DNA from: Paramacrobiotus metropolitanus
Lineage: Eukaryota > Tardigrada > Eutardigrada > Parachela > Macrobiotidae
Direction of reading: 5' to 3'
Assembly (NCBI RefSeq): GCF_019649055.1
Contig: NW_026570538.1
Location: 1-53,981 of the forward strand
DNA: 53,981 bases
Below are positions 69-47,504 of this stretch, piece by piece (position 1 is the stretch's first letter; each line of letters begins with the position of its first letter). The notes beneath the pieces are model-generated. The model made no database searches. It was not told where the DNA came from and saw nothing but the letters and a program-made list of their open reading frames with translations. A program made the translations under genes and the position numbers.

Positions 69-3000
69 TCCTGCGATTAGTCTGAAAGTTTCCCAAAAAT
101 GCCCTCTTTCATGCGAAAACATCGATGTTTCCGCGAAAGTCCGGATGTTTGGCAAAAATGCCGTCATATTTTTAGAATAACGATGTTTTTGCGAAGAAAC
201 CGGAAGTTTTGCAAAAATACCGCTTTCATTCGGAAACATCGGTTTCCCTTCGATTAGTCCGAAGGTTTTCTGAAAATGCCCTCTTTCATGCGAAAACATC
301 GATGTTTTAGCGAAAGGTCCGGATGTTTGTCAAAAATGCCATAAGTTTTGTAGAATATCAATGTTTTTGCGAGTAGTCCTTATGTCTCGGTTTTCCAGGG
401 TTTTCCAGAAATGCTCTCTTTCATGCGAAAAGATCGATGTTTTTGCGAAAGGTCCGGATGTTTGGCAAAAAACCGTCATTTTTTTAGAATACCGACGTTT
501 CCGCGAGTAGTCCTTATGTCTCGAAAAATGCCTTCATTTTTTAGAAAAACGATGTTTTTGCGAATGGACCGGAAGTTTTGCAAAAATGCCGTCTCTCATT
601 CGGAAACATCGGTGTCCTTGGGATTAGTCCGAGGGTTTTCCAGAAATGCACTCTTGCATGCGAAAACATCGATGTTTTTTCGAAAGGTCCGCATGTTTGG
701 CAAAAATACCGTCATTTTTTCAGAATATCGATGTTTTCGCGAGTAGTCCTTATGTCTCGAAAAATGGCGTTATTTTTTAGAATAACGATGTTTTTGCGAA
801 TGGACCGGAAATTTCGCAAAAATGCCGTCTCTCATTCGGAAACATCGGTGTCCTTGGGATTAGTCCGAGGGTTTTCCAGAAATGCGCTCTTGCATGCGAA
901 AACATCGATGTTTTTTCGAAAGGTCCGCATGTTTGGCAAAAATACCGTCATTTTTTCAGAATATCGATGTTTTCGCGAGTAGTCCTTATGTCTCACAAAA
1001 ATGCCGTCATTTTTCAGAAAAACGATGTTTTCGCGAATGGACCGGAAGTTTCGCAAAAATACCGCCTTTCATTCGGAAAGATAGGTGTCCCTGCGATTAG
1101 TCTGATAGTTTCCCAAAAATGCCCTCTTTCATGTGAAAACATCGATGTTTCCGCGATAGGTCCGGATGTTTGGCAAAAATGCCGTCATTTTTTAAGTATA
1201 ACCATGTTTTCGCGAAGAAACCGGAAGTCCGAGGGTTTCCCAGTCCGAGGGTTTCGAGGTCCGAGGGTTTCCCAGTCCGAGGGTTTCCCAGAAATGCATT
1301 CTTTCATGCGAAAACATCGATGTTTCTGCGATAGGTCCGGATGTTTGGCAAAAATGAAGTCATTTTTTTAGAATAACGATGTTTTCATGAAGAAACTGGA
1401 AGTTTTGCAAAATACCGCTTTTCATTCGGAAACATCGGTTTCCTTCGATTAGTCCGAAGGCTTTCTAAAATGCCCTCTTTCATGCGAAAGCATCGATGTT
1501 TTCATGAAAGGACCGGATGTTTGGCAAAATGCCGTAATTTTTTTAGAATATCGATGTTTTTGCGAGTAGTCCTTATGTCTCGGTTTTCCAGGGTTTTCCA
1601 GAAATGCTCTCTTTCATGCGAAAAGATCGATGTTTTGCGGAAGGTCCGGATGTTTGGCAAAAATGCCGTCATTTTTTCAGAATATCGATGTTTTCGCGAG
1701 TAGTCCGATTGTCTCGAAAAAAAGCCATCATTTTTTAAAATAACGATGTTTTTGCGAGTAATCCTTAAGTCTCGGTTTTCCGGGATTTTCCAGAAATGCA
1801 CTCTTTCATGCGAAAACATCGATGTTTTTGCGAAAGGTCCGCATTTTTGGCAAAAATACCGTCATTTTTTCAGAATATCGATGTTTTGGCGAGTAGTCCT
1901 TATGTCTCATAAAAATGCCGTCATTTTTTAGAAAAACGATGTTTTCGCGAATGGACCGGAAGTTTCGCAAAAATACCGCTTTTCATTCGGAAAGATCGGT
2001 GTCCCTGCGATTACTCTGAAAGTTTCCCAAAAATGCCCTCTTTCATGCGAAAACATCGATGTTTTTGCGGAAGGTCCGGATGTTTGGCAAAAATGCCGTC
2101 ATTTTATCAGAATATCGATGTTTTCGCGAGTAGTCCTATTGTCTCGAAAAAACAGCCATCATTTTTAAAAAATAACGATGTTTTGCGAGTAGTCCTTAAG
2201 TCTCGGTTTTCCGGGATTTTCCAGAAATGCACTCTTTCATGCGAAAACATCGATGTTTTTGCGGAAGGTCCGGATGTTTGGCAAAAAAGCCGTCATTTTT
2301 TCAGAATATCGATGTTTTCGCCTTATGTCTCGAAAAAAAGTAGTCCTTATGTCTCGAAAAAAGCCATCATTTTTTAGAATAACGATGTTTTCGCGAATGG
2401 ACCGGGATTTTCGCGAAAATCCCGTCGTTCATTCGGAAACATCGGTGTCCCTGCGATTAGTCTGCAATTTTACCAAAAATGCCTTCCTTTCATGCGAAAA
2501 CATTGATGCTTTTGCGATAGGCGATAGGTTGCGCGATGTTTTTTTTGGTTTTTGCGGTTTTGGCAGAAATGCCGTAATTTTTTTAGAATATCGATGTTTT
2601 TGCGAGTAGTCCTTATGTCTCGCAATATTGCTGTCATTGTTTTAGAATATCGATGTTTTTGCGAGTAGTCCTTATGTCTCGCAAAAAAGCCGTCATTGTT
2701 TTAGAATATCGACGTTTTCGCGAGTAGCCCTTATTTCTCGAAAAATGCCGTCATTTTTTAAGTATAACCATGTTTTCGCGAAGAAACCGGAAGTCCGAGG
2801 GTTTCCCAGTCCGAGGGTTTCGAGGTCCGAGGGTTTCCCAGTCCGAGGGTTTCCCAGAAATGCATTCTTTCATGCGAAAACATCGATGTTTCTGCGATAG
2901 GTCCGGATGTTTGGCAAAAATGAAGTCATTTTTTTAGAATAACGATGTTTTCGCGAAGAAACTGGAAGTTTTGCAAAAATACCGCTTTTCATTCGGAAAC

Positions 3001-6000
3001 ATCGGTTTCCCTTCGATTAGTCCGAAGGCTTTCTAAAAATGCCCTCTTTCATGCGAAAGCATCGATGTTTTCGCGAAAGGACCGGATGTTTGGCAAAAAT
3101 GCCGTAATTTTTTTAGAATATCGATGTTTTTGCGAGTAGTCCTTATGTCTCGGTTTTCCAGGGTTTTCCAGAAATGCTCTCTTTCATGCGAAAAGATCGA
3201 TGTTTTTGCGGAAGGTCCGGATGTTTGGCAAAAATGCCGTCATTTTTTCAGAATATCGATGTTTTCGCGAGTAGTCCGATTGTCTCGAAAAAAAGCCATC
3301 ATTTTTTAAAATAACGATGTTTTTGCGAGTAATCCTTAAGTCTCGGTTTTCCGGGATTTTCCAGAAATGCACTCTTTCATGCGAAAACATCGATGTTTTT
3401 GCGAAAGGTCCGCATTTTTGGCAAAAATACCGTCATTTTTTCAGAATATCGATGTTTTGGCGAGTAGTCCTTATGTCTCATAAAATGCCGTCATTTTTTA
3501 GAAAACGATGTTTTCGCGAATGGACCGGAAGTTTCGCAAAATACCGCTTTTCATTCGGAAAGATCGGTGTCCCTGCGATTACTCTGAAAGTTTCCCAAAA
3601 ATGCCCTCTTTCATGCGAAAACATCGATGTTTTTGCGGAAGGTCCGGATGTTTGGCAAAAATGCCGTCATTTTATCAGAATATCGATGTTTTCGCGAGTA
3701 GTCCTATTGTCTCGAAAAACAGCCATCATTTTTAAAAATAACGATGTTTTTGCGAGTAGTCCTTAAGTCTCGGTTTTCCGGGATTTTCCAGAAATGCACT
3801 CTTTCATGCGAAAACATCGATGTTTTTGCGGAAGGTCCGGATGTTTGGCAAAAGCCGTCATTTTTCAGAATATCGATGTTTTCGCCTTATGTCTCGAAAA
3901 AAGTAGTCCTTATGTCTCGAAAAAAGCCATCATTTTTTAGAATAACGATGTTTTCGCGAATGGACCGGGATTTTCGCGAAAATCCCGTCGTTCATTCGGA
4001 AACATCGGTGTCCCTGCGATTAGTCTGCAATTTTACCAAAAATGCCTTCCTTTCATGCGAAAACATTGATGCTTTTGCGATAGGCGATAGGTTGCGCGAT
4101 GTTTTTTTTGGTTTTTGCGGTTTTGGCAGAAATGCCGTAATTTTTTTAGAATATCGATGTTTTTGCGAGTAGTCCTTATGTCTCGCAATAATGCTGTCAT
4201 TGTTTTAGAATATCGATGTTTTTGCGAGTAGTCCTTATGTCTCGCAAAAAAGCCGTCATTGTTTTAGAATATCGACGTTTTCGCGAGTAGCCCTTATTTC
4301 TCGAAAAATGCCGTCATTTTTTAGAATAACGATGTTTTTGCGAATGGACCGGAGGTTTGGCGAAACTGCCGTTATTTTTTTAGAATAACGATGTTTTCGC
4401 AAAAAATGCCGCGTTTTTTTCGGAAACATCAGTGTCCTTGCGATTAGTCCAAGGGTTTTCCAGAAATGCACTCTTGCATGCGAAAACATCGATGTTTTTG
4501 CGAAAGGTCCGCATTTTTGGCAAAAATACCGTCATTTTTTCAGAATATCGATGTTTTGGCGAGTAGTCCTTATGTCTCATAAAAATGCCGTCATTTTTTA
4601 GAAAAACGATGTTTTCGCGAATGGACCGGAAGTTTCGCAAAAATACCGCTTTTCATTCGGAAAGATCGGTGTCCCTGCGATTACTCTGAAAGTTTCCCAA
4701 AAATGCCCTCTTTCATGCGAAAACATCGATGTTTCCGCGATAGGTCCGGATGTTTGGCAAAAATGCCGTCATTTTTTTAGAATATCGATGTTTTTGCGAG
4801 CAGTCCTTATGTCTCGGTTTTCCAGGGTTTTCCAGAAATGCTCTCTTTCATGCGAAAAGATCGATGTTTTTGCGGAAGGTCCGGATGTTTGGCAAAAATG
4901 CCGTCATTTTTTCAGAATATCGATGTTTTCGCGAGTAGTCCTATTGTCTCGAAAAAAAGCCATCATTTTTTAAAATAACGATGTTTTTGCGAGTAGTCCT
5001 TAAGTCTCGGTTTTCCGGGATTTTCCAGAAATGCACTCTTTCATGCGAAAACATCGATGTTTTTGCGGAAGGTCCGGATGTTTGGCAAAAAAGCCGTCAT
5101 TTTTCAGAATATCGATGTTTTCGCCTTATGTCTCGAAAAAAGTAGTCCTTATGTCTCGAAAAAGCCATCATTTTTTAGAATAACGATGTTTTCGCGAATG
5201 GACCGGGATTTTCGCGAAAATCCCGTCGTTCATTCGAAACATCGGTGTCCCTGCGATTAGTCTGCAATTTTACCAAAATGCCTTCCTTTCATGCGAAAAC
5301 ATTGATGCTTTTGCGATAGGCGATAGGTTGCGCGATGTTTTTTTTGGTTTTTGCGGTTTTGGCAGAAATGCCGTAATTTTTTAGAATATCGATGTTTTTG
5401 CGAGTAGTCCTTATGTCTCGCAATAATGCTGTCATTGTTTTAGAATATCGATGTTTTTGCGAGTAGTCCTTATGTCTCGCAAAAAAGCCGTCATTGTTTT
5501 AGAATATCGACGTTTTCGCGAGTAGTCCTTATTTCTCGAAAAATGCCGTCATTTTTTAGAATAACGATGTTTTTGCGAATGGACCGGAGGTTTGGCGAAA
5601 CTGCCGTTATTTTTTTAGAATAACGATGTTTTCGCAAAAAATGCCGCGTTTTTTTCGGAAACATCAGTGTCCTTGCGATTAGTCCGAGGGTTTTCCAGAA
5701 ATGCACTCTTGCATGCGAAAACATCGATGTTTTTGCGAAAGGTCCGCATTTTTGGCAAAAATACCGTCATTTTTTCAGAATATCGATGTTTTGGCGAGTA
5801 GTCCTTATGTCTCACAAAAATGCCGTCATTTTTTAGAAAACGATGTTTTCGCGAATGGACCGGAAGTTTCGCAAAAAATACCGCTTTTCATTCGGAAAGA
5901 TCGGTGTCCCTGCGATTACGCTGAAAGTTTCCCAAAATGCCCTCTTTTCATGCGAAAACATCGATGTTTCCGCGATAGGTCCGGATGTTTGGCAAAATGC

Positions 6001-7228
6001 CGTCATTTTTTAGAATAACGATGTTTTCGCGAATAAACTGGAAGTTTTGCAAAATACCGCTTTTCATTCGGAAAGATCGGTGTCCCTGCGATTACTCTGA
6101 AAGTTTCCCAAAATGCCCTCATGCGAAAACATCGATGTTTCCGCGATAGGTCCGGATGTTTGGCAAAAATGCCGTCATTTTTTTAGAATAACGATGTTTT
6201 CGCGAATAAACTGGAAGTTTTGCAGAAATACCGCTTTTCATTCTGAAACATCGGTTTCCCTTCGATTAGTCCGAAGGTTTTCTAAAAATGCCCTCTTTCA
6301 TGCGAAAACATCGATGTTTTCGCGAAAGGACCGGATGTTTGGCAAAAATGCCGTAATTTTTTTAGAATATCGATGTTTTTGCGAGTAGTCCTTATGTCTC
6401 GGTTTTCCAGGGTTTTCCAGAAATGCTCTCTCATGCGAAAAGATCGATGTTTTGCGGAAGGTCCGGATGTTTGGCAAAATGCCGTCATTTTTCAGAATAT
6501 CGATGTTTTCGCGAGTAGTCCTATTGTCTCGAAAAAAAGCCATCATTTTTCAAAATAACGATGTTTTTGCGAGTAGTCCTTAAGTCTCGGTTTTCCGGGG
6601 TTTTCCAGAAATGCACTCTTCATGCGAAAACATCGATGTTTTGCGGAAGGTCCGGATGTTTGGCAAAAAAGCCGTCATTTTTCAGAATATCGATGTTTTC
6701 GCCTTATGTCTCGAAAAAAAGTAGTCCTTATGTCTCGAAAAAAGCCATCATTTTTCAGAATAACGATGTTTTCGCGAATGGACCGATTTTCGCGAAATTC
6801 CGCCGTTCATTCGGAAACATCGGTGTCCCTGCGATTAGTCTGCAATTTTACCAAAATGCCTTTCTTTCATGCGAAAACATTGATGTTTTTTGCGATAGGC
6901 GATAGGTTGCGCGATGTTTTTTTTTGGTTTTTGCGGTTTTGGCAGAAATGCCGTAATTTTTCAGAATATCGATGTTTTTGCGAGTAGTCCTTATGTCTCG
7001 CAAAAGCCGTCATTGTTTTAGAATATCGACGTTTTCGCGAGTAGTCCTTATTTCTCGAAAATGCCGTCATTTTTAGAAAACGATGTTTTGCGAATGGACC
7101 GGAGGTTTGGCGAAACTGCCGTTATTTTTTTAGAATAATGATGTTTTCGCAAAAAATGCCGCGTTTTTTCGGAAACATCAGTGTCCTTGCGATTAGTCCG
7201 AGGGTTTCCCAGAAATGCATTCTTTCAT

Positions 7229-7250
7229 GCGAAAACATCGATGTTTTCGC
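7229..7250. repeat. Example of the 22-bp perfect palindrome in the satellite monomer
   Basis: The arms GCGAAAACATC and GATGTTTTCGC are exact reverse complements and meet with no spacer. The same perfect 22-mer is found for example at 6302-6323, 8918-8939 and 11887-11908. Other monomers keep only the inner 12-18 bases. It could be a dyad-binding site for a dimeric protein or a cruciform-prone site; neither is shown by sequence alone. Confidence 0.9.
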
Positions 7251-10200
7251 GAAAGGTCCAGATGTTTGGCAGAAATGCCGCCATTTTTTTCAGAATAACG
7301 ACGTTTTGCAAATGGACCGGAAGTTTCGCAGAAATACCGCCTTTCATTCGGAAACATCGGTGTGCCTGCGATTAGTTCGAAGGTTTTCTAAAATGCCCTC
7401 TGTCATGCAAAAACATCGATGTTACGCGAAAAGTCCGAATGTTTGGCAAAAATGCTGTCATTTTTTTAGAATTTCGATGTTTTCGCGAATGGTCCCGATG
7501 CGTCGCAAAACTGCCGTCATTTTTTTAAAATCACGATCTTTTTGCAAAAATGCCGCCTTTCATTCGGAAACATCGGTGTCCTTGCGATTAGTCTGAAGGT
7601 TTCCCAGAAATGCATTCTTTCATGCGAAAACATCGATGTTTACGCGAAAAGTCCGGATGTTCGGCAAAAATGCCGTCATTTTTTTAGAATAACGATGTTT
7701 TCGCGAATAAACTGGAAGTTTTGCAAAAATACCGCTTTTCATTCGGAAAGATCGGTGTCCCTGCGATTACTCTGAAAGTTTCCCAAAAATGCCCTCTTTC
7801 ATGCGAAAACATCGATGTTTCCGCGATAGGTCCGGATGTTTGGCAAAAATGCCGTCATTTTTTTAGAATAACGATGTTTTCGCGAATAAACTGGAAGTTT
7901 TGCAGAAATACCGCTTTTCATTCTGAAACATCGGTTTCCCTTCGATTAGTCCGAAGGTTTTCTAAAAATGCCCTCTTTCATGCGAAAACATCGATGTTTT
8001 CGCGAAAGGACCGGATGTTTGGCAAAATGCCGTAATTTTTTTAGAATATCGATGTTTTTTGCGAGTAGTCCTTATGTCTCGGTTTTCCAGGGTTTTCCAG
8101 AAATGCTCTCTTTCATGCGAAAAGATCGATGTTTTTGCGGAAGGTCCGGATGTTTGGCAAAAATGCCGTCATTTTTTCAGAATATCGATGTTTTCATGAG
8201 TAGTCCTATTGTCTCGAAAAAAGCCATCATTTTTCAAAATAACGATGTTTTGCGAGTAGTCCTTAAGTCTCGGTTTTCCGGGGTTTTCCAGAAATGCACT
8301 CTTTCATGCGAAAACATCGATGTTTTTGCGGAAGGTCCGGATGTTTGGCAAAAGCCGTCATTTTTTCAGAATATCGATGTTTTCGCCTTATGTCTCGAAA
8401 AAAAGTAGTCCTTATGTCTCGAAAAAAAGCCATCATTTTTCAGAATAACGATGTTTTCGCGAATGGACCGGGATTTTCGCGAAATTCCCGCCGTTCATTC
8501 GGAAACATCGGTGTCCCTGCGATTAGTCTGCAATTTTACCAAAAATGCCTTTCTTTCATGCGAAAACATTGATGTTTTTGCGATAGGCGATAGGTTGCGC
8601 GATGTTTTTTTTGGTTTTTGCGGTTTTGGCAGAAATGCCGTAATTTTTCAGAATATCGATGTTTTGCGAGTAGTCCTTATGTCTCGCAAAAGCCGTCATT
8701 GTTTTAGAATATCGACGTTTTCGCGAGTAGTCCTTATTTCTCGAAAAATGCCGTCATTTTTTAGAAAAACGATGTTTTTGCGAATGGACCGGAGGTTTGG
8801 CGAAACTGCCGTTATTTTTTTAGAATAATGATGTTTTCGCAAAAATGCCGCGTTTTTTCGGAAACATCAGTGTCCTTGCGATTAGTCCGAGGGTTTCCCA
8901 GAAATGCATTCTTTCATGCGAAAACATCGATGTTTTCGCGAAAGGTCCAGATGTTTGGCAGAAATGCCGCCATTTTTTCAGAATAACGACGTTTTTGCAA
9001 ATGGACCGGAAGTTTCGCAGAAATACCGCCTTTCATTCGGAAACATCGGTGTGCCTGCGATTAGTTCGAAGGTTTTCTAAAAATGCCCTCTGTCATTGAT
9101 GTTACGCGAAAAGTCCGAATGTTTGGCAAAAATGCTGTCATTTTTTTAGAATTTCGATGTTTTCGCGAATGGTCCCGATGCGTCGCAAAACTGCCGTCAT
9201 TTTTTTAAAATCACGATCTTTTGCAAAAAATGCCTTTCATTCGGAAACATCGGTGTCCTTGCGATTAGTCTGAAGGTTTCCCGGAAATGCATTCTTTCAT
9301 GCGAAAACATCGATGTTTACGCGAAAAGTCCGGATGTTCGGCAAAATTCCGTCATTTTTTAGAATAACGATGTTTTTTGCGAATGGACCGGAGGCTTGGC
9401 AAAACTGCCGTCATTTTAGAATAACGATGTTTTCGCAAAAATGCCGCCATTCATTCGGAAACATCAGTGTCCTGCGATTAGTCCGAGGGTTTTCCAGAAA
9501 TGCTCTCTTTCATGCGAAAAGATCGATGTTTTGCGGAAGGTCCGGATGTTTGGCAAAATGCCGTCATTTTATCAGAATATCGATGTTTTCGCGAGTAGTC
9601 CTATTGTCTCGAAAAAAAGCCATCATTTTTTAAAATAACGATGTTTTTGCGAGTAGTCCTTAAGTCTCGGTTTTCCGGGATTTTCCAGAAATGCACTCTT
9701 TCATGCGAAAACATCGATGTTTTTGCGGAAGGTCCGGATGTTTGGCAAAAAAGCCGTCATTTTTTCAGAATATCGATGTTTTCGCCTTATGTCTCGAAAA
9801 AAAGTAGTCCTTATGTCTCGAAAAAAGCCATCATTTTTTAGAATAACGATGTTTTCGCGAATGGACCGGGATTTTCGCGAAAATCCCGTCGTTCATTCGG
9901 AAACATCGGTGTCCCTGCGATTAGTCTGCAATTTTACCAAAAATGCCTTCCTTTCATGCGAAAACATTGATGCTTTTGCGATAGGCGATAGGTTGCGCGA
10001 TGTTTTTTTTGGTTTTTGCGGTTTTGGCAGAAATGCCGTAATTTTTTTAGAATATCGATGTTTTTGCGAGTAGTCCTTATGTCTCGCAATAATGCTGTCA
10101 TTGTTTTAGAATATCGATGTTTTGCGAGTAGTCCTTATGTCTCGCAAAAGCCGTCATTGTTTTAGAATATCGACGTTTTCGCGAGTAGTCCTTATTTCTC

Positions 10201-13200
10201 GAAAAAATGCCGTCATTTTTTAGAATAACGATGTTTTTGCGAATGGACCGGAGGTTTGGCGAAACTGCCGTTATTTTTTAGAATAACGATGTTTTCGCAA
10301 AAAATGCCGCGTTTTTTCGGAAACATCAGTGTCCTTGCGATTAGTCCAAGGGTTTTCCAGAAATGCACTCTTGCATGTGAAAACATCGATGTTTTGCGAA
10401 AGGTCCGCATTTTGGCAAAAATACCGTCATTTTTTCAGAATATCGATGTTTTGGCGAGTAGTCCTTATGTCTCACAAAATGCCGTCATGGACCGGAAGTT
10501 TCGCAAAATTACCGCTTTTCATCTGGAAAGATCGGTGTCCCTGCGATTACGCTGAAAGTTTCCCAAAAATGCCCTCTTTCATGCGAAAACATCGATGTTT
10601 CCGCGATAGGTCCGGATGTTTGGCAAAAATGCCGTCATTTTTTTAGAATAACGATGTTTTCGCGAATAAACTGGAAGTTTTGCAAAAATACCGCTTTTCA
10701 TTCGGAAAGATCGGTGTCCCTGCGATTACTCTGAAAGTTTCCCAAAAATGCCCTCTTTCATGCGAAAACATCGATGTTTCCGCGATAGGTCCGGATGTTT
10801 GGCAAAAATGCCGTCATTTTTTTAGAATAACGATGTTTTCGCGAATAAACTGGAAGTTTTGCAAAAATACCGCTTTTCATTCTGAAACATCGGTTTCCCT
10901 TCGATTAGTCCGAAGGTTTTCTAAAAATGCCCTCTTTCATGCGAAAACATCGATGTTTTCGCGAAAGGACCGGATGTTTGGCAAAAATGCCGTAATTTTT
11001 TTAGAATATCGATGTTTTTGCGAGTAGTCCTTATGTCTCGGTTTTCCAGGGTTTTCCAGAAATGCTCTCTTTCATGCGAAAAGATCGATGTTTTTGCGGA
11101 AGGTCCGGATGTTTGGCAAAAATGCCGTCATTTTTTCAGAATATCGATGTTTTCGCGAGTAGTCCTATTGTCTCGAAAAAAAGCCATCATTTTTCAAAAT
11201 AACGATGTTTTTGCGAGTAGTCCTTAAGTCTCGGTTTTCCGGGGTTTTCCAGAAATGCACTCTTTCATGCGAAAACATCGATGTTTTTGCGGAAGGTCCG
11301 GATGTTTGGCAAAAAAGCCGTCATTTTTTCAGAATATCGATGTTTTCGCCTTATGTCTCGAAAAAAAGTAGTCCTTATGTCTCGAAAAAAAGCCATCATT
11401 TTTCAGAATAACGATGTTTTCGCGAATGGACCGGGATTTTCGCGAAATTCCCGCCGTTCATTCGGAAACATCGGTGTCCCTGCGATTAGTCTGCAATTTT
11501 ACCAAAAATGCCTTTCTTTCATGCGAAAACATTGATGTTTTTGCGATAGGCGATAGGTTGCGCGATGTTTTTTTTGGTTTTTGCGGTTTTGGCAGAAATG
11601 CCGTAATTTTTTCAGAATATCGATGTTTTTGCGAGTAGTCCTTATGTCTCGCAAAAAAGCCGTCATTGTTTTAGAATATCGACGTTTTCGCGAGTAGTCC
11701 TTATTTCTCGAAAAATGCCGTCATTTTTTAGAATAACGATGTTTTTGCGAATGGACCGGAGGTTTGGCGAAACTGCCGTTATTTTTTTAGAATAATGATG
11801 TTTTCGCAAAAAATGCCGCGTTTTTTTCGGAAACATCAGTGTCCTTGCGATTAGTCCGAGGGTTTCCCAGAAATGCATTCTTTCATGCGAAAACATCGAT
11901 GTTTTCGCGAAAGGTCCAGATGTTTGGCAGAAATGCCGCCATTTTTTCAGAATAACGACGTTTTTGCAAATGGACCGGAAGTTTCGCAGAAATACCGCCT
12001 TTCATTCGGAAACATCGGTGTGCCTGCGATTAGTTCGAAGGTTTTCTAAAAATGCCCTCTGTCATTGATGTTACGCGAAAAGTCCGAATGTTTGGCAAAA
12101 ATGCTGTCATTTTTTTAGAATTTCGATGTTTTCGCGAATGGTCCCGATGCGTCGCAAAACTGCCGTCATTTTTTTAAAATCACGATCTTTTTGCAAAAAT
12201 GCCGCCTTTCATTCGGAAACATCGGTGTCCTTGCGATTAGTCTGAAGGTTTCCCAGAAATGCATTCTTTCATGCGAAAACATCGATGTTTACGCGAAAAG
12301 TCCGGATGTTCGGCAAAAATTCCGTCATTTTTTAGAATAACGATGTTTTTGCGAATGGACCGGAGGCTTGGCAAAACTGCCGTCATTTTTAGAATAACGA
12401 TGTTTTCGCAAAAAATGCCGCCATTCATTCGGAAACATCAGTGTCCTGCGATTAGTCCGAGGGTTTTCCAGAAATGCTCTCTTTCATGCGAAAAGATCGA
12501 TGTTTTTGCGGAAGGTCCGGATGTTTGGCAAAAATGCCGTCATTTTTTCAGAATATCGATGTTTTCGCGAGTAGTCCTATTGTCTCGAAAAAAAGCCATC
12601 ATTTTTCAAAATAACGATGTTTTTGCGAGTAGTCCTTAAGTCTCGGTTTTCCGGGGTTTTCCAGAAATGCACTCTTTCATGCGAAAACATCGATGTTTTT
12701 GCGGAAGGTCCGGATGTTTGGCAAAAAAGCCGTCATTTTTTCAGAATATCGATGTTTTCGCCTTATGTCTCGAAAAAAGTAGTCCTTATGTCTCGAAAAA
12801 AGCCATCATTTTTCAGAATAACGATGTTTTCGCGAATGGACCGGGATTTTCGCGAAATTCCGCCGTTCATTCGGAAACATCGGTGTCCCTGCGATTAGTC
12901 TGCAATTTTACCAAAAATGCCTTTCTTTCATGCGAAAACATTGATGTTTTGCGATAGGCGATAGGTTGCGCGATGTTTTTTTTGGTTTTGCGGTTTTGGC
13001 AGAAATGCCGTAATTTTTCAGAATATCGATGTTTTTGCGAGTAGTCCTTATGTCTCGCAAAAAAGCCGTCATTGTTTTAGAATATCGACGTTTTCGCGAG
13101 TAGTCCTTATTTCTCGAAAAATGCCGTCATTTTTTAGAAAAACGATGTTTTTGCGAATGGACCGGAGGTTTGGCGAAACTGCCGTTTTTTTTTTAGAATA

Positions 13201-13984
13201 ATGATGTTTTCGCAAAAAATGCCGCGTTTTTTTCGGAAACATCAGTGTCCTTGCGATTAGTCCGAGGGTTTCCCAGAAATGCATTCTTTCATGCGAAAAC
13301 ATCGATGTTTTCGCGAAAGGTCCAGATGTTTGGCAGAAATGCCGCCATTTTTTCAGAATAACGACGTTTTTGCAAATGGACCGGAAGTTTCGCAGAAATA
13401 CCGCCTTTCATTCGGAAACATCGGTGTGCCTGCGATTAGTTCGAAGGTTTTCTAAAAATGCCCTCTGTCATGCAAAAACATCGATGTTACGCGAAAAGTC
13501 CGAATGTTTGGCAAAAATGCTGTCATTTTTTTAGAATTTCGATGTTTTCGCGAATGGTCCCGATGCGTCGCAAAACTGCCGCCATTTTTTTAAAATCACG
13601 ATCTTTTCGCAAAAATGCCGCCTTTCATTCAGAAACATCGGTGTCCTTGCGATTAGTCTGAAGGTTTCCCAGAAATGCATTCTTTCATGCGAAAACATCG
13701 ATGTTTACGCGAAAAGTCCGGATGTTCGGCAAAAATTCCGTCATTTTTTAGAATAACGATGTTTTTGCGAATGGACCGGAGGCTTGGCAAAACTGCCGTC
13801 ATTTTTAGAATAACGATGTTTTCGCAAAAAATGCCGCCATTCATTCGGAAACATCAGTGTCCTGCGATTAGTCCGAGGGTTTCCCAGAAATGCAATCTTT
13901 CATGCGAAACATCGATGTTTCCGCGATAGGTCCGGATGTTTGGCAAAAATGCCGTCATTTTTTTAGTATAACCATGTTTTCGCG

Positions 13985-14060
13985 AAGAAACCGGAAGTCC
14001 GAGGGTTTCCCAGTCCGAGGATTTCGAGGTCCGAGGGTTTCCCAGTCCGAGGGTTTCCCA
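13985..14060. repeat. Nested 16-bp expansion inside the satellite
   Basis: Within one monomer the stretch AGTCCGAGGGTTTCCC is repeated four times in tandem, the second copy being changed to end in TTTCG. The same four-copy cassette recurs once per higher-order block: near 1227, 2790, 15030, 15548, 16590, 17570, 18475, 19515, 20020, 21058, 22040 and, in shorter or edited forms, 23544, 24570 and 25970. It marks the copies of one duplicated unit. Confidence 0.85.
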
Positions 14061-17000
14061 GGAATGCATTCTTTCATGCGAAAACATCGATGTTTTCGCG
14101 AAAGGTCCAGATGTTTGGCAGAAATGTCGTAATTTTTTTAGAATATCGATGTTTTTGCGAGTAGTCCTTATGTCTCGCAATAATGCCGTGATTTTTTTAA
14201 GAATAACAATGTTTTCGCAAAAATGCCGCCTTTTATTCGGAAACATCGGTGTCTTTGCGATTAGTCAGAGGGTTTCCCAAAAATGCCTTCTTTCATGCGA
14301 AACATCGATGTTTTCGCGGATGGACCGGGATTTTCGCGAAAATCCCGCCGTTCATTCGGAAACATCGGTGTCCCTGCGATTAGTCTGCAATTTTACCAAA
14401 AATGCCCTCTTGTATGCGTAAACGTTGATGTTTTTGCGATAGGTCCAGATGTTTGGCAGAAATGCCGTAATTTTTCTAGAATATCGATGTTTTTGCGAGT
14501 AATCCTTATGTCTCGCAAAAAAGCCGTCATTGTTTTAGAATATCGACGTTTTCGCGAGTAGTCCTTATGTCTCGAAAAATGCCGTTATTTTTAAGAATAA
14601 CGATGTTTTTGCGAATGGACCGGAAATTTCGCAAAAATGCTGCATCTCATTCGGAAACATCGGTGTCCTTGGGATTAGTCCGAGAGTTTTCCAGAAATGC
14701 ACTCTTGCATGCGAAAACATCGATGTTTTTGCGAAAGGTCCGCATGTTTGGCAAAAAAACCGTCATTTTTTCAAAATATCGATGTTTTCGCGAGTAGTCC
14801 TTATGTCTCACAAAAATGCCGTCATTTTTTAGAAAAACGATGTTTTCGCGAATGGACCGGATGTTGCGCAAAAATACCGCCTTTCATTTGGAAAGATAGG
14901 TGTCCCTGCGATTAGTCTGATAGTTTCCCAAAAATGCCCTCTTTCATTTGAAAACATCGATGTTTCCGCGAAAGGTCCGGATGTTTGGCAAAAATGCCGT
15001 CATTTTTTTAGTATAACCATGTTTTCGCGAAGAAACCGGAAGTCCGAGGGTTTCCCAGTCCGAGGGTTTCGAGGTCCGAGGGTTTCCCAGTCCGACGGTT
15101 TCCCAGAAATGCATTCTTTCATGCAAAAACATCGATGTTTTGGCGAAAGGTCCAGATGTTTGGCAGAAATGCCGTAATTTTTTTAGAATATCGATGTTTT
15201 TGCGAGTAGTCCTTATGTCTCGCAATAATGCCGTCATTGTTTTAGAATATCGACGTTTTCGCGAGTAGTCCTTATTTCTCGAAAACTGCCGTCATTTTTT
15301 AGAATAACGATGTTTTTTGCGAATGGACCGGAGGTTGGCAAAACTGCCGTCATTTTTAGAATAACGATGTTTTCGCAAAAAATGCCGCCATTCATTCGGA
15401 AACATCAGTGTCCTGCGATTAGTCCGAGGGTTTCCCAGAAATGCAATCTTTCATGCGAAACATCGATGTTTCCGCGATAGGTCCGGATGTTTGGCAAAAA
15501 TGCCGTCATTTTTTTAATATAACCATGTTTTCGCGAAGAAACCGGAAGTCCGAGGGTTTCCCAGTCCGAGGGTTTCGAGGTCCGAGGGTTTCCCAGTCCG
15601 AGGGTTTCCCAGAAATGCATTCTTTCATGCGAAAACATCGATGTTTTCGCGAAAGGTCCAGATGTTTGGCAGAAATGTCGTAATTTTTTTAGAATATCGA
15701 TGTTTTTGCGAGTAGTCCTTATGTCTCGCAATAATGCCGTGATTTTTTTAAGAATAACAATGTTTTCGCAAAAATGCCGCCTTTTATTCGGAAACATCGG
15801 TGTCTTTGCGATTAGTCAGAGGGCTTCCCAAAAATGCCTTCTTTCATGCGAAACATCGATGTTTTCGCGGATGGACCGGGATTTTCGCGAAAATCCCGCC
15901 GTTCATTCGGAAACATCGGTGTCCCTGCGATTAGTCTGCAATTTTACCAAAAATGCCCTCTTTCATGCGAAAACATTGATGTTTTTGCGATAGGTCCAGA
16001 TGTTTGGCAGAAATGCCGTAATTTTTTTAGAATATCCATGTTTTTGCGAGTAGTCCTTATGTCTCGCAAAAAAGCCGTCATTGTTTTAGAATATCGACGT
16101 TTTCGCGAGTAGTCCTTATGTCTAGAAAAATGCCGTTATTTTTAAGAATAACGATGTTTTTGCGAATGGACCGGAAATTTCGCAAAAATGCCGCATCTCA
16201 TTCGGAAACATCGGTGTCCTTGGGATTAGTCCGAGAGTTTTCCAGAAATGCACTCTTGCATGCGAAAACATCGATGTTTTTGCGAAAGGTCCGCATGTTT
16301 GGCAAAAATACCGTCATTTTTTCAGAATATCGATGTTTTCGCGAGTAGTCCTTATGTCTCACAAAAATGCCGTCATTTTTTAGAAAAACGATGTTTTCGC
16401 GAATGGACCGGAAGTTTCGCAAAAATACCGCCTTTCATTCGGAAAGATAGGTGTCCCTGCGATTAGTCTGATAGTTTCCCAAAAATGCCCTCTTTCATGT
16501 GAAAACATCGATGTTTCCGCGATAGGTCCGGATGTTTGGCAAAAATGCCGTCATTTTTTTAGTATAACCATGTTTTCGCGAAGAAACCGGAAGTCCGAGG
16601 GTTTCCCAGTCCGAGGGTTTCGAGGTCCGAGGGTTTCCCAGTCCGAGGGTTTCCCAGAAATGCATTCTTTCATGCGAAAACATCGATGTTTTCGCGAAAG
16701 GTCCAGATGTTTGGCAGAAATGTCGTAATTTTTTTAGAATATCGATGTTTTTGCGAGTAGTCCTTATGTCTCGCAATAATGCCGTCATTTTTTCAGAATA
16801 TCGATGTTTTCTCGAGTAGTCTTTATGTCTCGAAAAAATGCCGTCATTTTTTTAAGAATAACAATGTTTTCGCAAAAATGCCGCCTTTTATTCGGAAACA
16901 TCGGTGTCATTGCGATTAGTCAGAGGGTTTCCCAAAAATGCCTTCTTTCATGCGAAACATCGATGTTTTCGCGCATGGACCGGGATTTTCGCGAAAATCC

Positions 17001-20000
17001 CGCCGTTCATTCGGAAACATCGGTGTCCCTGCGATTAGTCTGCAATTTTACCAAAAATGCCCTCTTTCATGCGAAAACATTGATGTTTTGCGATAGGTCC
17101 AGATGTTTGGCAGAAATGCCGTAATTTTTTTAGGATATCGATGTTTTTCGCAATTTCGCAAAAATGCCGCATCTCATTCGGAAACATCGGTGTCCTTGGG
17201 ATTAGTCCGAGAGTTTTCCAGAAATGCACTCTTGCATGCGAAAACATCGATGTTTTTGCGAAAGGTCCGCATGTTTGGCAAAAATACCGTCATTTTTTCA
17301 GAATATCGATGTTTTCGCGAGTAGTCCTTATGTCTCACAAAAATGCCATCATTTTTTAGAAAAACGATGTTTTCGCGAATGGACCGGAAGTTTCGCAAAA
17401 ATACCGCCTTTCATTCGGAAAGATAGGTGTCCCTGCGATTAGTCTGATAGTTTCCCAAAAATGCCCTCTTTCATGTGAAAACATCGATGTTTCCGCGATA
17501 GGTCCGGATGTTTGGCAAAAATGCCGTCATTTTTTTAGTATAACCATGTTTTCGCGAAGAAACCGGAAGTCCGAGGGTTTCCCAGTCCGAGGGTTTCGAG
17601 GTCCGAGGGTTTCCCAGTCCGAGGGTTTCCCAGAAATGCATTCTTTCATGCAAAAACATCGATGTTTTGGCGAAAGGTCAAGAAGTTTGGCAGAAATGCC
17701 GTAATTTTTTTAGAATATAGATGTTTTTGCGAGTAGTCCTTATGTCTCGCAATAATGCCGTCATTGTTTTAGAATATCGACGTTTTCGCGAGTAGTCCTT
17801 ATTTCTCGAAAAATGCCGTCATTTTTTAGAATAACGATGTTTTTGCGAATGGACCGGAGGTTTGGCGAAACTGCCGTTATTTTTTTAGAATAACGATGTT
17901 TTCGCAAAAAATGCCGCGTTTTTTTCGGAAACATCAGTGTCCTTGCGATTAGTCCGAGGGTTTCCCAGAAATGCATTCTTTCATGCGAAAACATCGATGT
18001 TTTCGCGAAAGGTCCAGATGTTTGGCAGAAATGCCGCCATTTTTTCAGAATAACGACGTTTTTGCAAATGGACCGGAAGTTTCGCAGAAATACCGCCTTT
18101 CATTCGGAAACATCGGTGTGCCTGCGATTAGTTCGAAGGTTTTCTAAAAATGCCCTCTGTCATGCAAAAACATCGATGTTACGCGAAAAGTCCGAATGTT
18201 TGGCAAAAATGCTGTCATTTTTTTAGAATTTCGATGTTTTCGCGAATGGTCCCGATTCGTCGCAAAACTGCCGCCATTTTTTTAAAATCACGATCTTTTC
18301 GCAAAAATGCCGCCTTTCATTCAGAAGCATCGGTGTCCTTGCGATTAGTCTGAAGGTTTCCCAGAAATGCATTCTTTCATGCGAAAACATCGATGTTTAC
18401 GCGAAAAGTCCGGATGTTTGGCAAAAATGCCGTCATTTTTTTAGTATAACCATGTTTTCGCGAAGAAACCGGAAGTCCGAGGGTTTCCCAGTCCGAGGAT
18501 TTCGAGGTCCGAGGGTTTCCCAGTCCGAGGGTTTCCCAGGAATGCATTCTTTCATGCGAAAACATCGATGTTTTCGCGAAAGGTCCAGATGTTTGGCAGA
18601 AATGTCGTAATTTTTTTAGAATATCGATGTTTTTGCGAGTAGTCCTTATTTCTCGAAAAATGCCGTCATTTTTTAGAATAACGATGTTTTCGCAAAAATG
18701 CCGCCTTTTATTCGGAAACATCGGTGTCTTTGCGATTAGTCAGAGGGTTTCCCAAAAATGCCTTCTTTCATGCGAAACATCGATGTTTTCGCGGATGGAC
18801 CGGGATTTTCGCGAAAATCCCGCCGTTCATTCGGAAACATCGGTGTCCCTGCGATTAGTCTGCAATTTTACCAAAAATGCCCTCTTGTATGCGTAAACGT
18901 TGATGTTTTTGCGATAGGTCCAGATGTTTGGCAGAAATGCCGTAATTTTTCTAGAATATCGATGTTCTTGCGAGTAATCCTTATGTCTCGCAAAAAAGCC
19001 GTCATTGTTTTAGAATATCGACGTTTTCGCGAGTAGTCCTTATGTCTCGAAAAATGCCGTTATTTTTAAGAATAACGATGTTTTTGCGAATGGACCGGAA
19101 ATTTCGCAAAATGCTGCATCTCATTCGGAAACATCGGTGTCCTTGGGATTAGTCCGAGAGTTTTCCAGAAATGCACTCTTGCATGCGAAAACATCGATGT
19201 TTTTGCGAAAGGTCCGCATGTTTGGCAAAAAAACCGTCATTTTTTCAAAATATCGATGTTTTCGCGAGTAGTCCTTATGTCTCACAAAAATGCCGTCATT
19301 TTTTAGAAAAACGATGTTTTCGCGAATGGACCGGATGTTGCGCAAAAATACCGCCTTTCATTTGGAAAGATAGGTGTCCCTGCGATTAGTCTGATAGTTT
19401 CCCAAAAATGCCCTCTTTCATTTGAAAACATCGATGTTTCCGCGAAAGGTCCGGATGTTTGGCAAAAATGCCGTCATTTTTTTAGTATAACCATGTTTTC
19501 GCGAAGAAACCGGAAGTCCGAGGGTTTCCCAGTCCGAGGGTTTCGAGGTCCGAGGGTTTCCCAGTCCGACGGTTTCCAGAAATGCATTCTTTCATGCAAA
19601 ACATCGATGTTTTGGCGAAAGGTCCAGATGTTTGGCAGAAATGCCGTAATTTTTTTAGAATATCGATGTTTTTGCGAGTAGTCCTTATGTCTCGCAATAA
19701 TGCCGTCATTGTTTTAGAATATCGACGTTTTCGCGAGTAGTCCTTATTTCTCGAAAACTGCCGTCATTTTTTAGAATAACGATGTTTTTGCGAATGGACC
19801 GGAGGTTGGCAAAACTGCCGTCATTTTTAGAATAACGATGTTTTCGCAAAAAATGCCGCCATTCATTCGGAAACATCAGTGTCCTGCGATTAGTCCGAGG
19901 GTTTCCCAGAAATGCAATCTTTCATGCGAAACATCGATGTTTCCGCGATAGGTCCGGATGTTTGGCAAAAATGCCGTCATTTTTTTAATATAACCATGTT

Positions 20001-23000
20001 TTCGCGAAGAAACCGGAAGTCCGAGGGTTTCCCAGTCCGAGGGTTTCGAGGTCCGAGGGTTTCCCAGTCCGAGGGTTTCCCAGAAATGCATTCTTTCATG
20101 CGAAAACATCGATGTTTTCGCGAAAGGTCCAGATGTTTGGCAGAAATGTCGTAATTTTTTTAGAATATCGATGTTTTTGCGAGTAGTCCTTATGTCTCGC
20201 AATAATGCCGTGATTTTTTTAAGAATAACAATGTTTTCGCAAAAATGCCGCCTTTTATTCGGAAACATCGGTGTCTTTGCGATTAGTCAGAGGGCTTCCC
20301 AAAAATGCCTTCTTTCATGCGAAACATCGATGTTTTCGCGGATGGACCGGATTTTCGCGAAAATCCCGCCGTTCATTCGGAAACATCGGTGTCCCTGCGA
20401 TTAGTCTGCAATTTTACCAAAATGCCCTCTTTCATGCGAAAACATTGATGTTTTGCGATAGGTCCAGATGTTTGGCAGAAATGCCGTAATTTTTTTAGAA
20501 TATCCATGTTTTTGCGAGTAGTCCTTATGTCTCGCAAAAAAGCCGTCATTGTTTTAGAATATCGACGTTTTCGCGAGTAGTCCTTATGTCTCGAAAAATG
20601 CCGTTATTTTTAAGAATAACGATGTTTTTGCGAATGGACCGGAAATTTCGCAAAAATGCCGCATCTCATTCGGAAACATCGGTGTCCTTGGGATTAGTCC
20701 GAGAGTTTTCCAGAAATGCACTCTTGCATGCGAAAACATCGATGTTTTTGCGAAAGGTCCGCATGTTTGGCAAAAATACCGTCATTTTTTCAAAATATCG
20801 ATGTTTTCGCGAGTAGTCCTTATGTCTCACAAAAATGCCGTCATTTTTAGAAAACGATGTTTTCGCGAATGGACCGGAAGTTTCGCAAAAATACCGCCTT
20901 TCATTCGGAAAGATAGGTGTCCCTGCGATTAGTCTGATAGTTTCCCAAAAATGCCCTCTTTCATGTGAAAACATCGATGTTTCCGCGATAGGTCCGGATG
21001 TTTGGCAAAAATGCCGTCATTTTTTTAGTATAACCATGTTTTCGCGAAGAAACCGGAAGTCCGAGGGTTTCCCAGTCCGAGGGTTTCGAGGTCCGAGGGT
21101 TTCCCAGTCCGAGGGTTTCCCAGAAATGCATTCTTTCATGCGAAAACATCGATGTTTTCGCGAAAGGTCCAGATGTTTGGCAGAAATGTCGTAATTTTTT
21201 TAGAATATCGATGTTTTTGCGAGTAGTCCTTATGTCTCGCAATAATGCCGTCATTTTTTCAGAATATCGATGTTTTCTCGAGTAGTCTTTATGTCTCGAA
21301 AAAATGCCGTCATTTTTTTAAGAATAACAATGTTTTCGCAAAAATCCCGCCGTTCATTCGGAAACATCGGTGTCCCTGCGATTAGTCTGCAATTTTACCA
21401 AAAATGCCCTCTTTCATGCGAAAACATTGATGTTTTTGCGATAGGTCCAGATGTTTGGCAGAAATGCCGTAATTTTTTTAGAATATCGATGTTTTTGCGA
21501 GTAGTCCTTATGTCTCGCAAAAAAGCCGTCATTGTTTTAGAATATCGACGTTTTCGCGAGTAGTCCTTATGTCTCGAAAAATGCCGTTATTTTTAAGAAT
21601 AACGATGTTTTTGCGAATGGACCGGAAATTTCGCAAAAATGCCGCATCTCATTCGGAAACATCGGTGTCCTTGGGATTAGTCCGAGTTTTCCAGAAATGC
21701 ACTCTTGCATGCGAAAACATCGATGTTTTTGCGAAAGGTCCGCATGTTGGGCAAAAATACCGTCATTTTTCAAAATATCGATGTTTTCGCGAGTAGTCCT
21801 TATGTCTCACAAAATGCCGTCATTTTTTAGAAAAACGATGTTTTCGCGAATGGACCGGAAGTTTCGCAAAAATACCGCCTTCATTCGGAAAGATAGGTGT
21901 TCCTGCGATTAGTCTGATAGTTTCCCAAAAATGCCCTCTTTCATGTGAAAACATCGATGTTTCCGCGATAGGTCCGGATGTTTGGCAAAAATGCCGTCAT
22001 TTTTTTAGTATAACCATGTTTTCGCGAAGAAACCGGAAGTCCGAGGGTTTCCCAGTCCGAGGGTTTCGAGGTCCGAGGGTTTCCCAGTCCGAGGGTTTCC
22101 CAGAAATGCATTCTTTCATGCGAAAACATCGATGTTTTCGCGAAAGGTCCAGATGTTTGGCAGAAATGCCGTAATTTTTTTTGAATATCGATGTTTCTGC
22201 GAGTAGTACTTATGTCTCGCAAAAATGTTGTCATTTTTTTAAGAATAACAATGTTTTCGCAAAAATGCCGCCTTTTATTCGGAAACATCTGTGTCTTTCC
22301 GATTAGTCAGAGGGTTTCCCAAAAATGCCTTCTTTCATGCGAAAACATCGATGTTTTCGCGAATGTTCCTTATGTCTCGCAAAAATGCCGTCATTTTTTC
22401 AGAATATCGATGTTTTCGCGAAAATTGCCGCCTTTTTTTGGAAACATCAGTGTCCTTGCGATTAGTCAGAAGGTTTCCCAAAAATGCCTTCTTTCATGCA
22501 AAAACATCGATGTTTTCGCGAATGTTCCTTATGTCTCGTGCCATTTTTTTCAGAATATCGATGTTTTCGCGAGTAGTCTTTATGTCTCGAAAAATGTCGT
22601 CATTTTTAGAATAACGATATGAATGGACCGGAGGTTTGGCCAAAATTCCTTTATTTTTTAGAATAACGATGTTTTCGCAAAAAATGCCGCGTTTTTTTCG
22701 GAAACATCAGTGTCCTTGCGATTAGTCCGAGGGTTTTTCCAGAAATGCATTCTTTCATGCGAAAACATCGATGTTTTCGCGAAAGGACCAGATGTTTGGC
22801 AAAAAGGCCGCCGTTTTCTTAGAATAACGATGTTTTTGCTAATGGACCGGAAATTCGCAAAATGCCGCACCGGGATTAGTTCTCAAAAATGCACTCCATG
22901 CGAAAACATCGATGTTTTGCGAAAGGTCCGAGGTTTTGCAAAATGCCGTTATTTTTTTAGAATAACGATGTTTTCGCAAAAAAATGCCGCGTTTTTTAGG

Positions 23001-26000
23001 AAACATCAGTGTCCTTGCGATTAGTCCGAGGTTTTCCAGAAATGCATTCTTTCATGCGAAAACATCGATGTTTTCGCGAAAGGTCAGATGTTTGGCAAAA
23101 GGCCGCCGTTTTCTTAGAATAACGATGTTTTTTGCTAATGGACCGGAAGTTTCGCAAAATGCCGCATCTCATTCGGAAACATCGGTGTCCTTGGGATTAG
23201 TCCGAGGTTTTCCAGAAATGCTCTTGCATGCGAAAACATCGATGTTTTTGCGAAAAGTCCGAATGTTTTGCAAAAAATACCGTCATTTTTTCAGAATATC
23301 GATGTTTTCGCGAGTAGTCCTATGTCTCACAAAAATGCCGTCATTTTTTAGAAAAATGATTTCGCGCGATGGACCGAAGTTTCGCAAAATACCGCCTTTC
23401 ATCGAAAGATCGGTGTCCTGCGATTAGTCTGATAGTTTCCCAAAATGCTCTTTCATGTGAAAACATCGATGTTTCCGCGATAGGTCCGATGTTTGGCAAA
23501 ATGCCGTCATTTTTTCAGATATATGTTTTCGCGAAGAAACCGAAGTCCGAGGTTTCCCAGTCCGAGGTTTCGAGGTCCGAGGTTTCCAGTCCGAGGTTTC
23601 CCAGAAATGCCTTCTTTCATGCGAAAACATCGATGTTTTCGCGAAAGCCAGAGGTTTGGCAGAAATGCGTAATTTTTTTAGAATATCGATGTTTTTGCGA
23701 GTAGTCCTTATGTCTCGCAATAATGCCGTCATTTTTTCAGAATATCGATGTTTTCTCGAGTAGTCTTTATGTCTCGAAAAATGCCGTATTTTTTAAGAAT
23801 AACAATGTTTTCGCAAAATGCCGCCTTTTATTCGGAAACATCGGTGTCTTTGCGATTAGTCAGAGGTTTCCCAAAAATGCCTTCTTTCATGCGAAACATC
23901 GATGTTTTCGCGGATGGACCGGATTTTCGCAAAAATGCCGCCGTTCATTCGGAAACATCGGTGTCCTGCGGATTAGTCTGCAATTTTACCGAAATGCACT
24001 CTTGCATGCGAAAACATCGATGTTTTGCGAAAGGTCCGATGTTTGGCAGAAATGCCGTAATTTTTTTAGAATATCGATGTTTTTGCGAGTAGTCCTTATG
24101 TCTCACAAAAAATGCCGTCATTGTTTTAGAATATCGACGTTTTCGCGAGCGAGAATGGACCGGAAATTTCGCAAAAATGCCGCATCTCATTCGGAAACAT
24201 CGGTGTCCTTGGATTAGTCCGAGTTTTCCAGAAATGCATTCTTGCATGCGAAAACATCGATGTTTTTGCTGAAAGGTCTCGATGTTTGGCAAAATACCGT
24301 CATTTTTCAAAATATCGATGTTTTCGCGAGTAGTCCTTATGTCTCACAAAATGCCGTCATTTTTTAGAAAACATCGATGTTTTCGCGAATGGACCGGAAG
24401 TTTCGCAAAATACCGCCTTTCATTCGAAAGATAGGTGTCCCTGCGATTAGTCTGGTAGTTTCCCAAAAATGCCCTCTTTCATGTGAAAACATCGATGTTT
24501 CCGCGATAGGTCCGATGTTTGGCAAAATGCCGTCATTTTTTTTAGTATAACCATGTTTTCGCGAAGAAACCGGAAGTCCGAGGTTTCCCAGTCCGAGGTT
24601 TCGAGGTCCGAGGTTTCCAGTCCGAGGGTTTCCAGAATGATTTTCATGCGAAAACATCGATGTTTCGCGAAAGGTCCAGATGTTTGGCAGATGTTTCCCA
24701 GTCCGAGGGTTTCGAGGTCCGAGGGTTTCCCAGTCCGAGGGTTTCCAGAAATGACATTCTTTCATGCGAAAACATCGATGTTTTCGCGAAAGGTCCAGAT
24801 GTTTGGCAGAAATGCCGTAATTTTTTTGAATATCGATGTTTCTGCGAGTAGTACTTATGTCTCGCAAAAATGTTGTCATTTTTTAAGAATAACAATGTTT
24901 TCGCAAAAATGCCGCCTTTTATTCGGAAACATCTGTGTCTTTCCGATTAGTCAGAGGGTTTCCCAAAAATGCCTTCTTTCATGCGAAAACATCGATGTTT
25001 TCGCGAATGTTCCTTATGTCTCGCAAAAATGCCGTCATTTTTTCAGAATATCGATGTTTTCGCGAAAATTGCCGCCTTTTTTTGGAAACATCAGTGTCCT
25101 TGCGATTAGTCAGAAGGTTTCCCAAAAGTGCCTTCTTTCATGCAAAAACATCGATGTTTTCGCGAATGTTCCTTATGTCTCGCAAAAATGCCGTCAATTT
25201 TTTTAGAATATCGATGTTTTCGCGAGTAGTCTTTATGTCTCGAAAAAATGTCGTCATTTTTTAGAATAACGATGTTCTCGCGAATGGACCGGAGGTTTGG
25301 CCAAAATTCCTTTATTTTTTTAGAATAACGATGTTTTCGCAAAAAATGCCGCGTTTTTTTCGGAAACATCAGTGTCCTTGCGATTAGTCCGAGGGTTTTT
25401 CCAGAAATGCATTCTTTCATGCGAAAACATCGATGTTTTCGCGAAAGGTCCAGATGTTTGGCAAAAAGGCCGCCGTTTTCTTAGAATAACGATGTTTTTG
25501 CTAATGGACCGGAAGTTTCGCAAAAATGCCGCCTTTCATTCGGAAACATCGGCGTCCCTGCGATTAGTTCGAAGGTTTTCTAAAAATGCCCTCTGTCATG
25601 CAAAAACATCGATGTTACGCGAAAAGTCCGAATGTTTTGCAAAAATGCTGTCATTTTTTTGTAATATCGATGTTTTCGCGAATGGTCCCGATGTGTCGCA
25701 AAACTGCCGTCATTTTTTTAAAATAACGATCTTTTCGCAAAAATGCCGCCTTTCATTCGGAAACATCGGTGTCCTTGCGATTAGTCTGAGGGTTTCCCAG
25801 AAATGCATTCTTTCATGCGAAAACATCGATGTTTACGCGAAAAGTCCGGATGTTCGGCAAAAATGCCGTCATCTTTTTAGGATATCGATGTTTTTGCGAG
25901 TAGTCCTTATGTCTCGCAAAAATGCCGTCATTTTTTCAGAATATCGATGTTTTCGCGAAGAAACCGGAAGTCCGAGGGTTTCCCAGTCCGAGGGTTTCCC

Positions 26001-26430
26001 AGAAATGCATTCTTTCATGCGAAAACATCGATGTTTTCGCGAAAGGTCCAGATGTTTGGCAGAAATGCCGTAATTTTTTTAGAATATCGATGTTTTTGCG
26101 AGTAGTCCTTATGTCTCGCAAAAATGCCGTCATTTTTTCAGAATATCGATGTTTTCGCGAGTAGTCTTTATGTCTCGAAAAAATGCCGTCATTTTTTTAA
26201 GAATAACAATGTTTTCGCAAAAATGCCGCCTTTTATTCGGAAACATCGGTGTCTTTGCGATTAGTCAGAGGGTTTCCCAAAAATGCCTTCTTTCATGCGA
26301 AAACATCGATGTTTTCGCGAATGTTCCTTATGTCTCGCAAAAATGCCGTCATTTTTTCAGAAAATCGATGTTTTCGCGAATGGATCGGAGATTTGGCGAA
26401 ACTGCCGTCATTTTTTTAGAATAACGATGT

Positions 26431-29325: not shown

Positions 29326-29353
29326 TAAGTAAAAGTCTGCCGTTGTCGCTGGA

Positions 29354-39462: not shown

Positions 39463-39499
39463 GTATTTATTTGCCCTTCGTACCTGTTCATCGTGATAC

Positions 39500-47476: not shown

Positions 47477-47504
47477 GTCAGATTACACGCATAATGAAAT
47501 TTTG

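Follow-up and report, generated by a model that had tools for sequence, protein, structure and literature searches.

The CENP-B box is a short, 17-bp protein site with nine essential bases that recurs in mammalian centromeric satellites that are otherwise different. In Meloidogyne, divergent satellite families of the same genome share a short motif, form higher-order repeats (HORs) and are mixed at junctions, and association with CenH3 is reported for the satellites carrying the 19-bp box (PMC9673304, PMC3694981). A third related arrangement is found in the Helentron HINE elements of Crassostrea gigas, which combine satellite-like central repeats with a palindrome (PMC7492417). Little seems to be in print on tardigrade satellites: among the matches listed for satellite DNA, centromere, holocentric and tandem repeat, no title or abstract opening described one. 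For Paramacrobiotus metropolitanus, a 170-Mbp genome and 2n = 10 are reported (PMC11191345).

We analyzed a window of 53,981 bp that constitutes the entire contig C318 (GC content 42.6%) of the 169.8-Mb (169,799,020 bp), 533-contig P. metropolitanus genome. Three satellite families were distinguished in this genome, and a palindromic motif, hereafter the box, is common to satellites that are otherwise unrelated. This shared box is the most informative feature and the part worth following, and was absent from the original prediction for this DNA, which concerned the satellite array itself. As in Meloidogyne, families share a short motif, HORs are present and families mix at junctions. The differences from the sets described there are that the animal group and the motif are others, that the motif in P. 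metropolitanus is a perfect 20–22-bp palindrome occurring in two forms, that nothing detectable beyond the box connects families 1 and 2, and that the association with CenH3 is one reported in Meloidogyne. The likeness to the CENP-B box lies in a short putative protein site that recurs in otherwise different satellites. By analogy, the arrangement may work like the Meloidogyne and CENP-B sets, a comparison that makes no claim to membership in a centromeric class.

Table 1. Features located in the 53,981-bp window (contig C318).
Feature	Position	Strand	Basis
Fragment of the family-3 347-bp unit (TGTCAATTTGTCA motif), at contig end	1..67	+	Similarity to C24 unit
Family-1 satellite array, 58–60-bp monomers in HORs	~68..26434	+	TRF, monomer profile
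HOR domain A, repeat 1.24–1.69 kb, marker CGATAGGTTGCGCGATG	2522..13000	+	Marker spacing
24 exact CGAAAACATCGATGTTTTCG boxes	6303..26317 (first 6303–6322, last 26298–26317)	+	Pattern search
HOR domain B, marker 16-bp-period AGTCCGAGGGTTTCCC blocks	13996..26003	+	TRF, profile, block pairs
Right flank, genic and transposon DNA mixed, no box within 2 mismatches	26435..53981	.	ORF/Pfam, box search
Broken reverse transcriptase region	30159..33580	+	Pfam on one piece
ORF with leucine-rich repeat, LRR_8 E 1.2e-05 (below curated cut-off)	35170..36618	-	Pfam
Armadillo-repeat exon	41158..41475	-	Pfam
DNA polymerase delta subunit 2 exon	46560..46921	-	Pfam

The tandem satellite array originally predicted at 70–26430 is real, with TRF and the monomer profile placing it within a few bases of those limits (Table 1) and shuffles excluding chance. 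A one-strand monomer profile identified 423 monomers on the plus strand of the array at ≥75% profile coverage. A two-strand search of the window returned 439 plus-strand and 404 minus-strand matches, the latter being so many because the family-1 monomer contains a palindrome. Outside the array there were eight profile matches, each of at most 6.6 bits. The longest array stretch lacking profile coverage is 65 bp, and at this scale the predicted freedom from foreign insertions holds, since the long uncovered stretches are 16-bp-period blocks that recur within the higher-order repeat. What is not confirmed is that the array is complete, with both edges visible. The first 69 bases of the window are identical to the 347-bp satellite unit of contig C24 at 63 of 69 positions, so that the left boundary is a satellite-to-satellite junction 68 bp from the contig end, and non-satellite DNA opens only at the right edge, near 26434. 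On C24, the 347-bp array directly adjoins a family-1 array.

The proposed ~59-bp monomer gives the right length and too simple a picture, given that the array comprises two HOR domains and probable sub-units; the higher-order repeats rule out a simple 59-bp satellite. The domain A marker is found at eight positions (2522, 4085, 5321, 6900, 8588, 9986, 11551 and 12959), and two 16-bp-period blocks of the domain B type are present outside that domain as well, at 1226 and 2792. A 3.8-kb block of domain B recurs at 96.6% identity. Further block pairs in the array have lengths of 2.7, 2.1 and 1.9 kb and identities of 96.0, 93.4 and 96.9%, respectively, and the shorter listed pairs are 76–98% identical. 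The window array grew and was homogenized in kilobase blocks, and the recombinational homogenization proposed earlier fits these large blocks repeated at 93–97% identity. The array is a head-to-tail tandem satellite with HORs, found at multiple loci and homogenized in blocks. Its autocorrelation peaks at 19–20 and 39–40 bp, which suggests that the family-1 monomer consists of three ~20-bp sub-units.

The adjoining 27 kb had been described as full of transposons. Pfam searches of ten right-flank ORFs, which address ORF-bearing elements only, bear this out in part: a single fragment of a broken reverse transcriptase stands beside a leucine-rich-repeat ORF, an exon of DNA polymerase delta subunit 2 and an Armadillo-repeat exon, which we read as importin-alpha-like. 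The RVT_1 match (piece 30773–31060) has an E-value of 8.9e-06, below the curated cut-off, and the three other ORFs of that region, none of which matched a Pfam family, were assigned to it by reading. Comparison of the reverse transcriptase region with phage gave no match, nor did Rfam and tRNA searches.

A monomer search of the genome overturned the notion of a single clean locus. Family 1, with 59/60-bp monomers, is present on at least seven contigs besides C318, namely, C24, C25, C88, C142, C171, C207 and C458 (here and below, contig lists derived from pattern searches are lower bounds), and a 935-bp query from the window array shows 67–81% similarity to these relatives in matches over 400 bp. 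The family-1 arrays on C24, C25 and C88 are located more than 100 kb from either end of contigs of 1.40, 1.33 and 0.63 Mb, respectively. This distribution establishes neither a single site on each chromosome nor a uniform scatter. The ~460-bp unit of C142 is chimeric, family-1 monomers being joined in it to a TGTCAATTTGTCA-type segment. This unit forms a regular array at 18–27 kb of the contig, as opposed to the first 9.5 kb (C142:1-10000), where family-1 sequence is present as few, irregular fragments. Family 2, which carries box 1, consists of units of ~199, 313 and 512 bp on C135, C111 and C116; on C135, exact boxes lie at 245.8–281.1 kb among the matches listed, and the array fills 312.5–321.5 kb, near the contig end. 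In family 3, found on at least C19, C24, C51 and C56, the unit measures 322, 347 or ~498 bp. Across the three families, the shortest array measures 0.3 kb and the longest at least 35 kb. The monomer had seemed undescribed and, in agreement, five motif strings from the satellite and its relatives occur in no paper of the literature searched, where the one paper found on a 59-bp satellite monomer concerns mouse.

Box 1 is a perfect 20-bp palindrome, CGAAAACATCGATGTTTTCG, extended to 22 bp by a flanking G and C, and can occur in the family-1 monomer. Within two mismatches, the window contains 92 boxes, located between 114 and 26317, compared to none in each of 100 shuffles, so that chance is excluded for the window boxes. 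Genome-wide, the 22-bp form is found at 77 sites, every one of them assigned to a contig (3 on C24, 1 on C25, 2 on C135, 12 on C142, 32 on C171, 3 on C207 and 24 on C318) and the other exact 20-mers of box 1 at 208 forward and 22 reverse matches, for an exact total of 285–307 sites in 170 Mb; the reversed control patterns for both the 22-mer and the 20-mer have no match in the genome. A 257-Gb collection of bacterial and archaeal sequences contains one stretch with the exact 20-bp box, in a Lacticaseibacillus porcinae contig, which is probably a chance occurrence, and viral contigs contain none. In the C171 array, which has a 240-bp unit, one box class contains a 32-bp palindrome in the consensus, TATATGCAAAAACATCGATGTTTTTGCATATA.

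For the comparison of families 1 and 2, which omitted C142 and C458, a ~600-bp slice was taken from the center of each long array, and C111 and C116 were represented by their doubled unit consensus. The best local score was 18–23 in all 18 array pairs, a level that none of 40 shuffles attained. Once the box was masked, the 18 scores fell to 10–14, values attained by 1–37 of 40 shuffles. The best alignment between C135 and C318 is exactly the box. On this evidence, families 1 and 2 share box 1 and nothing else detectable, that is, one short motif is common to otherwise unrelated satellites beyond chance. Satellites often look unconstrained; two families that are unrelated save for one 20-bp palindrome, together with a third that carries a related palindrome, amount to a natural experiment.

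Family 3 carries box 2, whose sequence is GCGAAACATCCGGATGTTT or closely similar; exact sites number 183 in the forward and 127 in the reverse orientation. In its fullest form, box 2 is the palindrome CGAAACATCCGGATGTTTCG, equal in length to the fullest box 1, with the outer GCGAAA...TTTCGC equally spaced and with a different ten-base center; the copy in the 347-bp unit of C24 has lost its palindromic symmetry. Among the 12 pairs of family-2 and family-3 arrays, detectable similarity is limited to C135 with C19 and is lacking in the other 11, and because of this the treatment of the two boxes as one system is a reading. Half of box 2 is present in the family-1 monomer. Together with the ~20-bp periodicity of the family-1 array, this half box would fit a neutral descent of all families from a single ancestral ~20-bp repeat having two dyad centers (TTTTCGCGAAAACATCGATG-like), with the box as its undecayed remainder. 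We consider such an origin quite improbable: with families 1 and 2 lacking residual similarity outside the box, the box alone would have had to persist, by chance, in several arrays, and in two of them it is also the best-conserved window.

Within-array conservation was assessed by aligning the unit copies and ranking all 20-bp windows; the windows overlap, so the ranks are not probabilities. Rows covering less than 80% of the unit model were dropped, which left 41 of 43 for C135, 17 of 19 for C116, 20 of 21 for C111, 21 of 42 for C142, 11 of 18 for C51, 9 of 12 for C19, 14 of 16 for the 347-bp and 3 of 5 for the 322-bp unit of C24, and 39 of 115 for C171. Across these nine arrays, the box is the best window in two, ranks high in four and is unremarkable in three. 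No non-box window is equally good in C135 (0/135) and C111 (0/138). High ranks were obtained for C51 (15/438 equally good non-box windows), C19 (15/430), the 347-bp unit of C24 (13/288) and the three boxes of C171 (20, 10 and 15 of 102). The box does not stand out in C116 (56/253) or in the 322-bp unit of C24 (97/261, from three units), nor do two of the three boxes of C142 (271/328 and 320/328), the third having 32/328. Between family-1 loci, scored without C25 (three monomers) and C458 (two), the six best-conserved windows all overlap the box, where the alignment may itself be anchored. The longest perfect palindrome (16–32 bp) sits at a box in eight of the nine unit consensuses. Covariation between the palindrome arms, considered as general evidence for symmetry, was negative in eight of nine arrays, only C171 exceeding its shuffles (C25, with one copy, was dropped from this test).

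We tentatively favor, as a serious possibility that falls short of being probable, the interpretation that the window array is one block of a satellite set kept around a box for a dimer-binding protein and packaged as heterochromatin. The box would be the recognition site of a putative dimeric, sequence-specific DNA-binding protein that packages box-bearing arrays as constitutive heterochromatin, possibly, although not necessarily, centromeric. Satellites would amplify in blocks, the common constraint on the unrelated arrays being the box rather than the whole unit, and the box would work in the manner of CENP-B boxes or the 19-bp box of Meloidogyne. Several findings weigh against the box being such a site: the 92 boxes within two mismatches (24 of them exact) stand against 423 monomers, conservation is unremarkable in C116, in two of the three C142 boxes and in the 322-bp unit of C24, arm covariation is absent from eight of nine arrays, and box 2 is broken in the 347-bp unit of C24. 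A more specific proposal, which we regard as unlikely, is that the palindromic box, in its two forms, is a modular binding code and that centromeric or pericentromeric chromatin is defined by the lineage-specific dimeric protein that reads it. This would be an independent invention of the CENP-B-box principle, in which the satellite turns over freely and the box alone is kept. The families sharing the box make it testable whether satellites bear any functional signal, with a defined bait for pull-down and a defined prediction for chromatin.

The box could instead be a hotspot of recombination or amplification, with no selected binding site. As a palindrome, it would break often, through hairpin extrusion or cleavage by a transposase, would seed tandem duplication in any DNA that contains it and would spread from array to array by template switching. 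That families 1 and 2 have the palindrome alone in common would fit, as would the chimeric unit of C142 and the abutment of families 1 and 3, seen on C24 and again where the window begins; in Meloidogyne, some monomer transitions are likewise placed exactly at a conserved box (PMC3694981). A first look at the array ends with unit models suggested no common phase. In family 1, five of seven right ends fall inside the box, which spans 20 of 56 model positions (post-hoc binomial P = 0.06), a result that is usable for breakage and that counts against a binding site. However, none of the six left ends does, and the overall 5 of 13 equals the share expected from the model positions (P = 0.52), for which reason the ends did not shift our weighting of the readings. 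None of the family-2 and family-3 ends seen (both ends of C116, and those of C135, C51 and the 347-bp array of C24) lies at the box in the unit models, and the family-1/family-3 junctions on C24 and in the window are at different points of both satellites. We rate a hotspot as fairly unlikely, and retain the binding-site interpretation.

Non-autonomous mobile elements of one group commonly have only their ends in common, so unrelated interiors with a shared box could also arise if the box were a terminal or subterminal module of such a group, either a Helitron/Helentron 3' palindrome or abutted MITE-like inverted ends. Box 2 occurs singly, together with ~190 bp of homology to family 3, at ~1300–1700 of the segment C6:2435300-2438500, just behind an open frame (454–1485 of the segment) that matches a PIF1-like helicase (E = 3.4e-52), by our reading that of a Helitron. 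In this copy, the whole palindrome is internal to the homologous stretch and not at its ends. The oyster Helentrons, with satellite-like central repeats and a 3' palindrome, offer a model (PMC7492417), the likeness being tandem repeats and a palindrome tied to helicase-bearing elements, which is suggested in P. metropolitanus by the one C6 fragment only. In contrast to the HINE elements, neither defined ends nor constant flanks nor subterminal inverted repeats were seen in P. metropolitanus, and some arrays, at more than 20 kb, are far longer. Furthermore, the family-1 left ends and the family-2 and family-3 ends seen are not at half boxes, and no element end or terminator was found among the loci examined. 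A mobile-element origin of the box is unlikely in our estimation, and the binding site remains the interpretation that we prefer.

The CENP-B box proper was rejected as a candidate, with no exact match to the essential bases in the array. Among ten units, the best full-box matches are at shuffle level in nine, all but C51 (2 of 100 shuffles), and those to the essential bases in all ten. Telomeres could not be placed in the assembly because TTAGG-type repeats show no enrichment (16 sites versus 12 for the control) and GATGGGTTTT dimers within one mismatch are absent from the whole assembly.

Two further observations concern the surroundings of family-3 arrays. The left flanks of the arrays on C51 (1015500–1024500) and C56 (1–9500) are 94–96% identical but rearranged, and these loci may represent two unmerged haplotypes or a segmental duplication. 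On C19 (690000–695000), inverted family-3 copies are located outside the direct array, at positions 495–1222 of the segment, and likewise at the other end.
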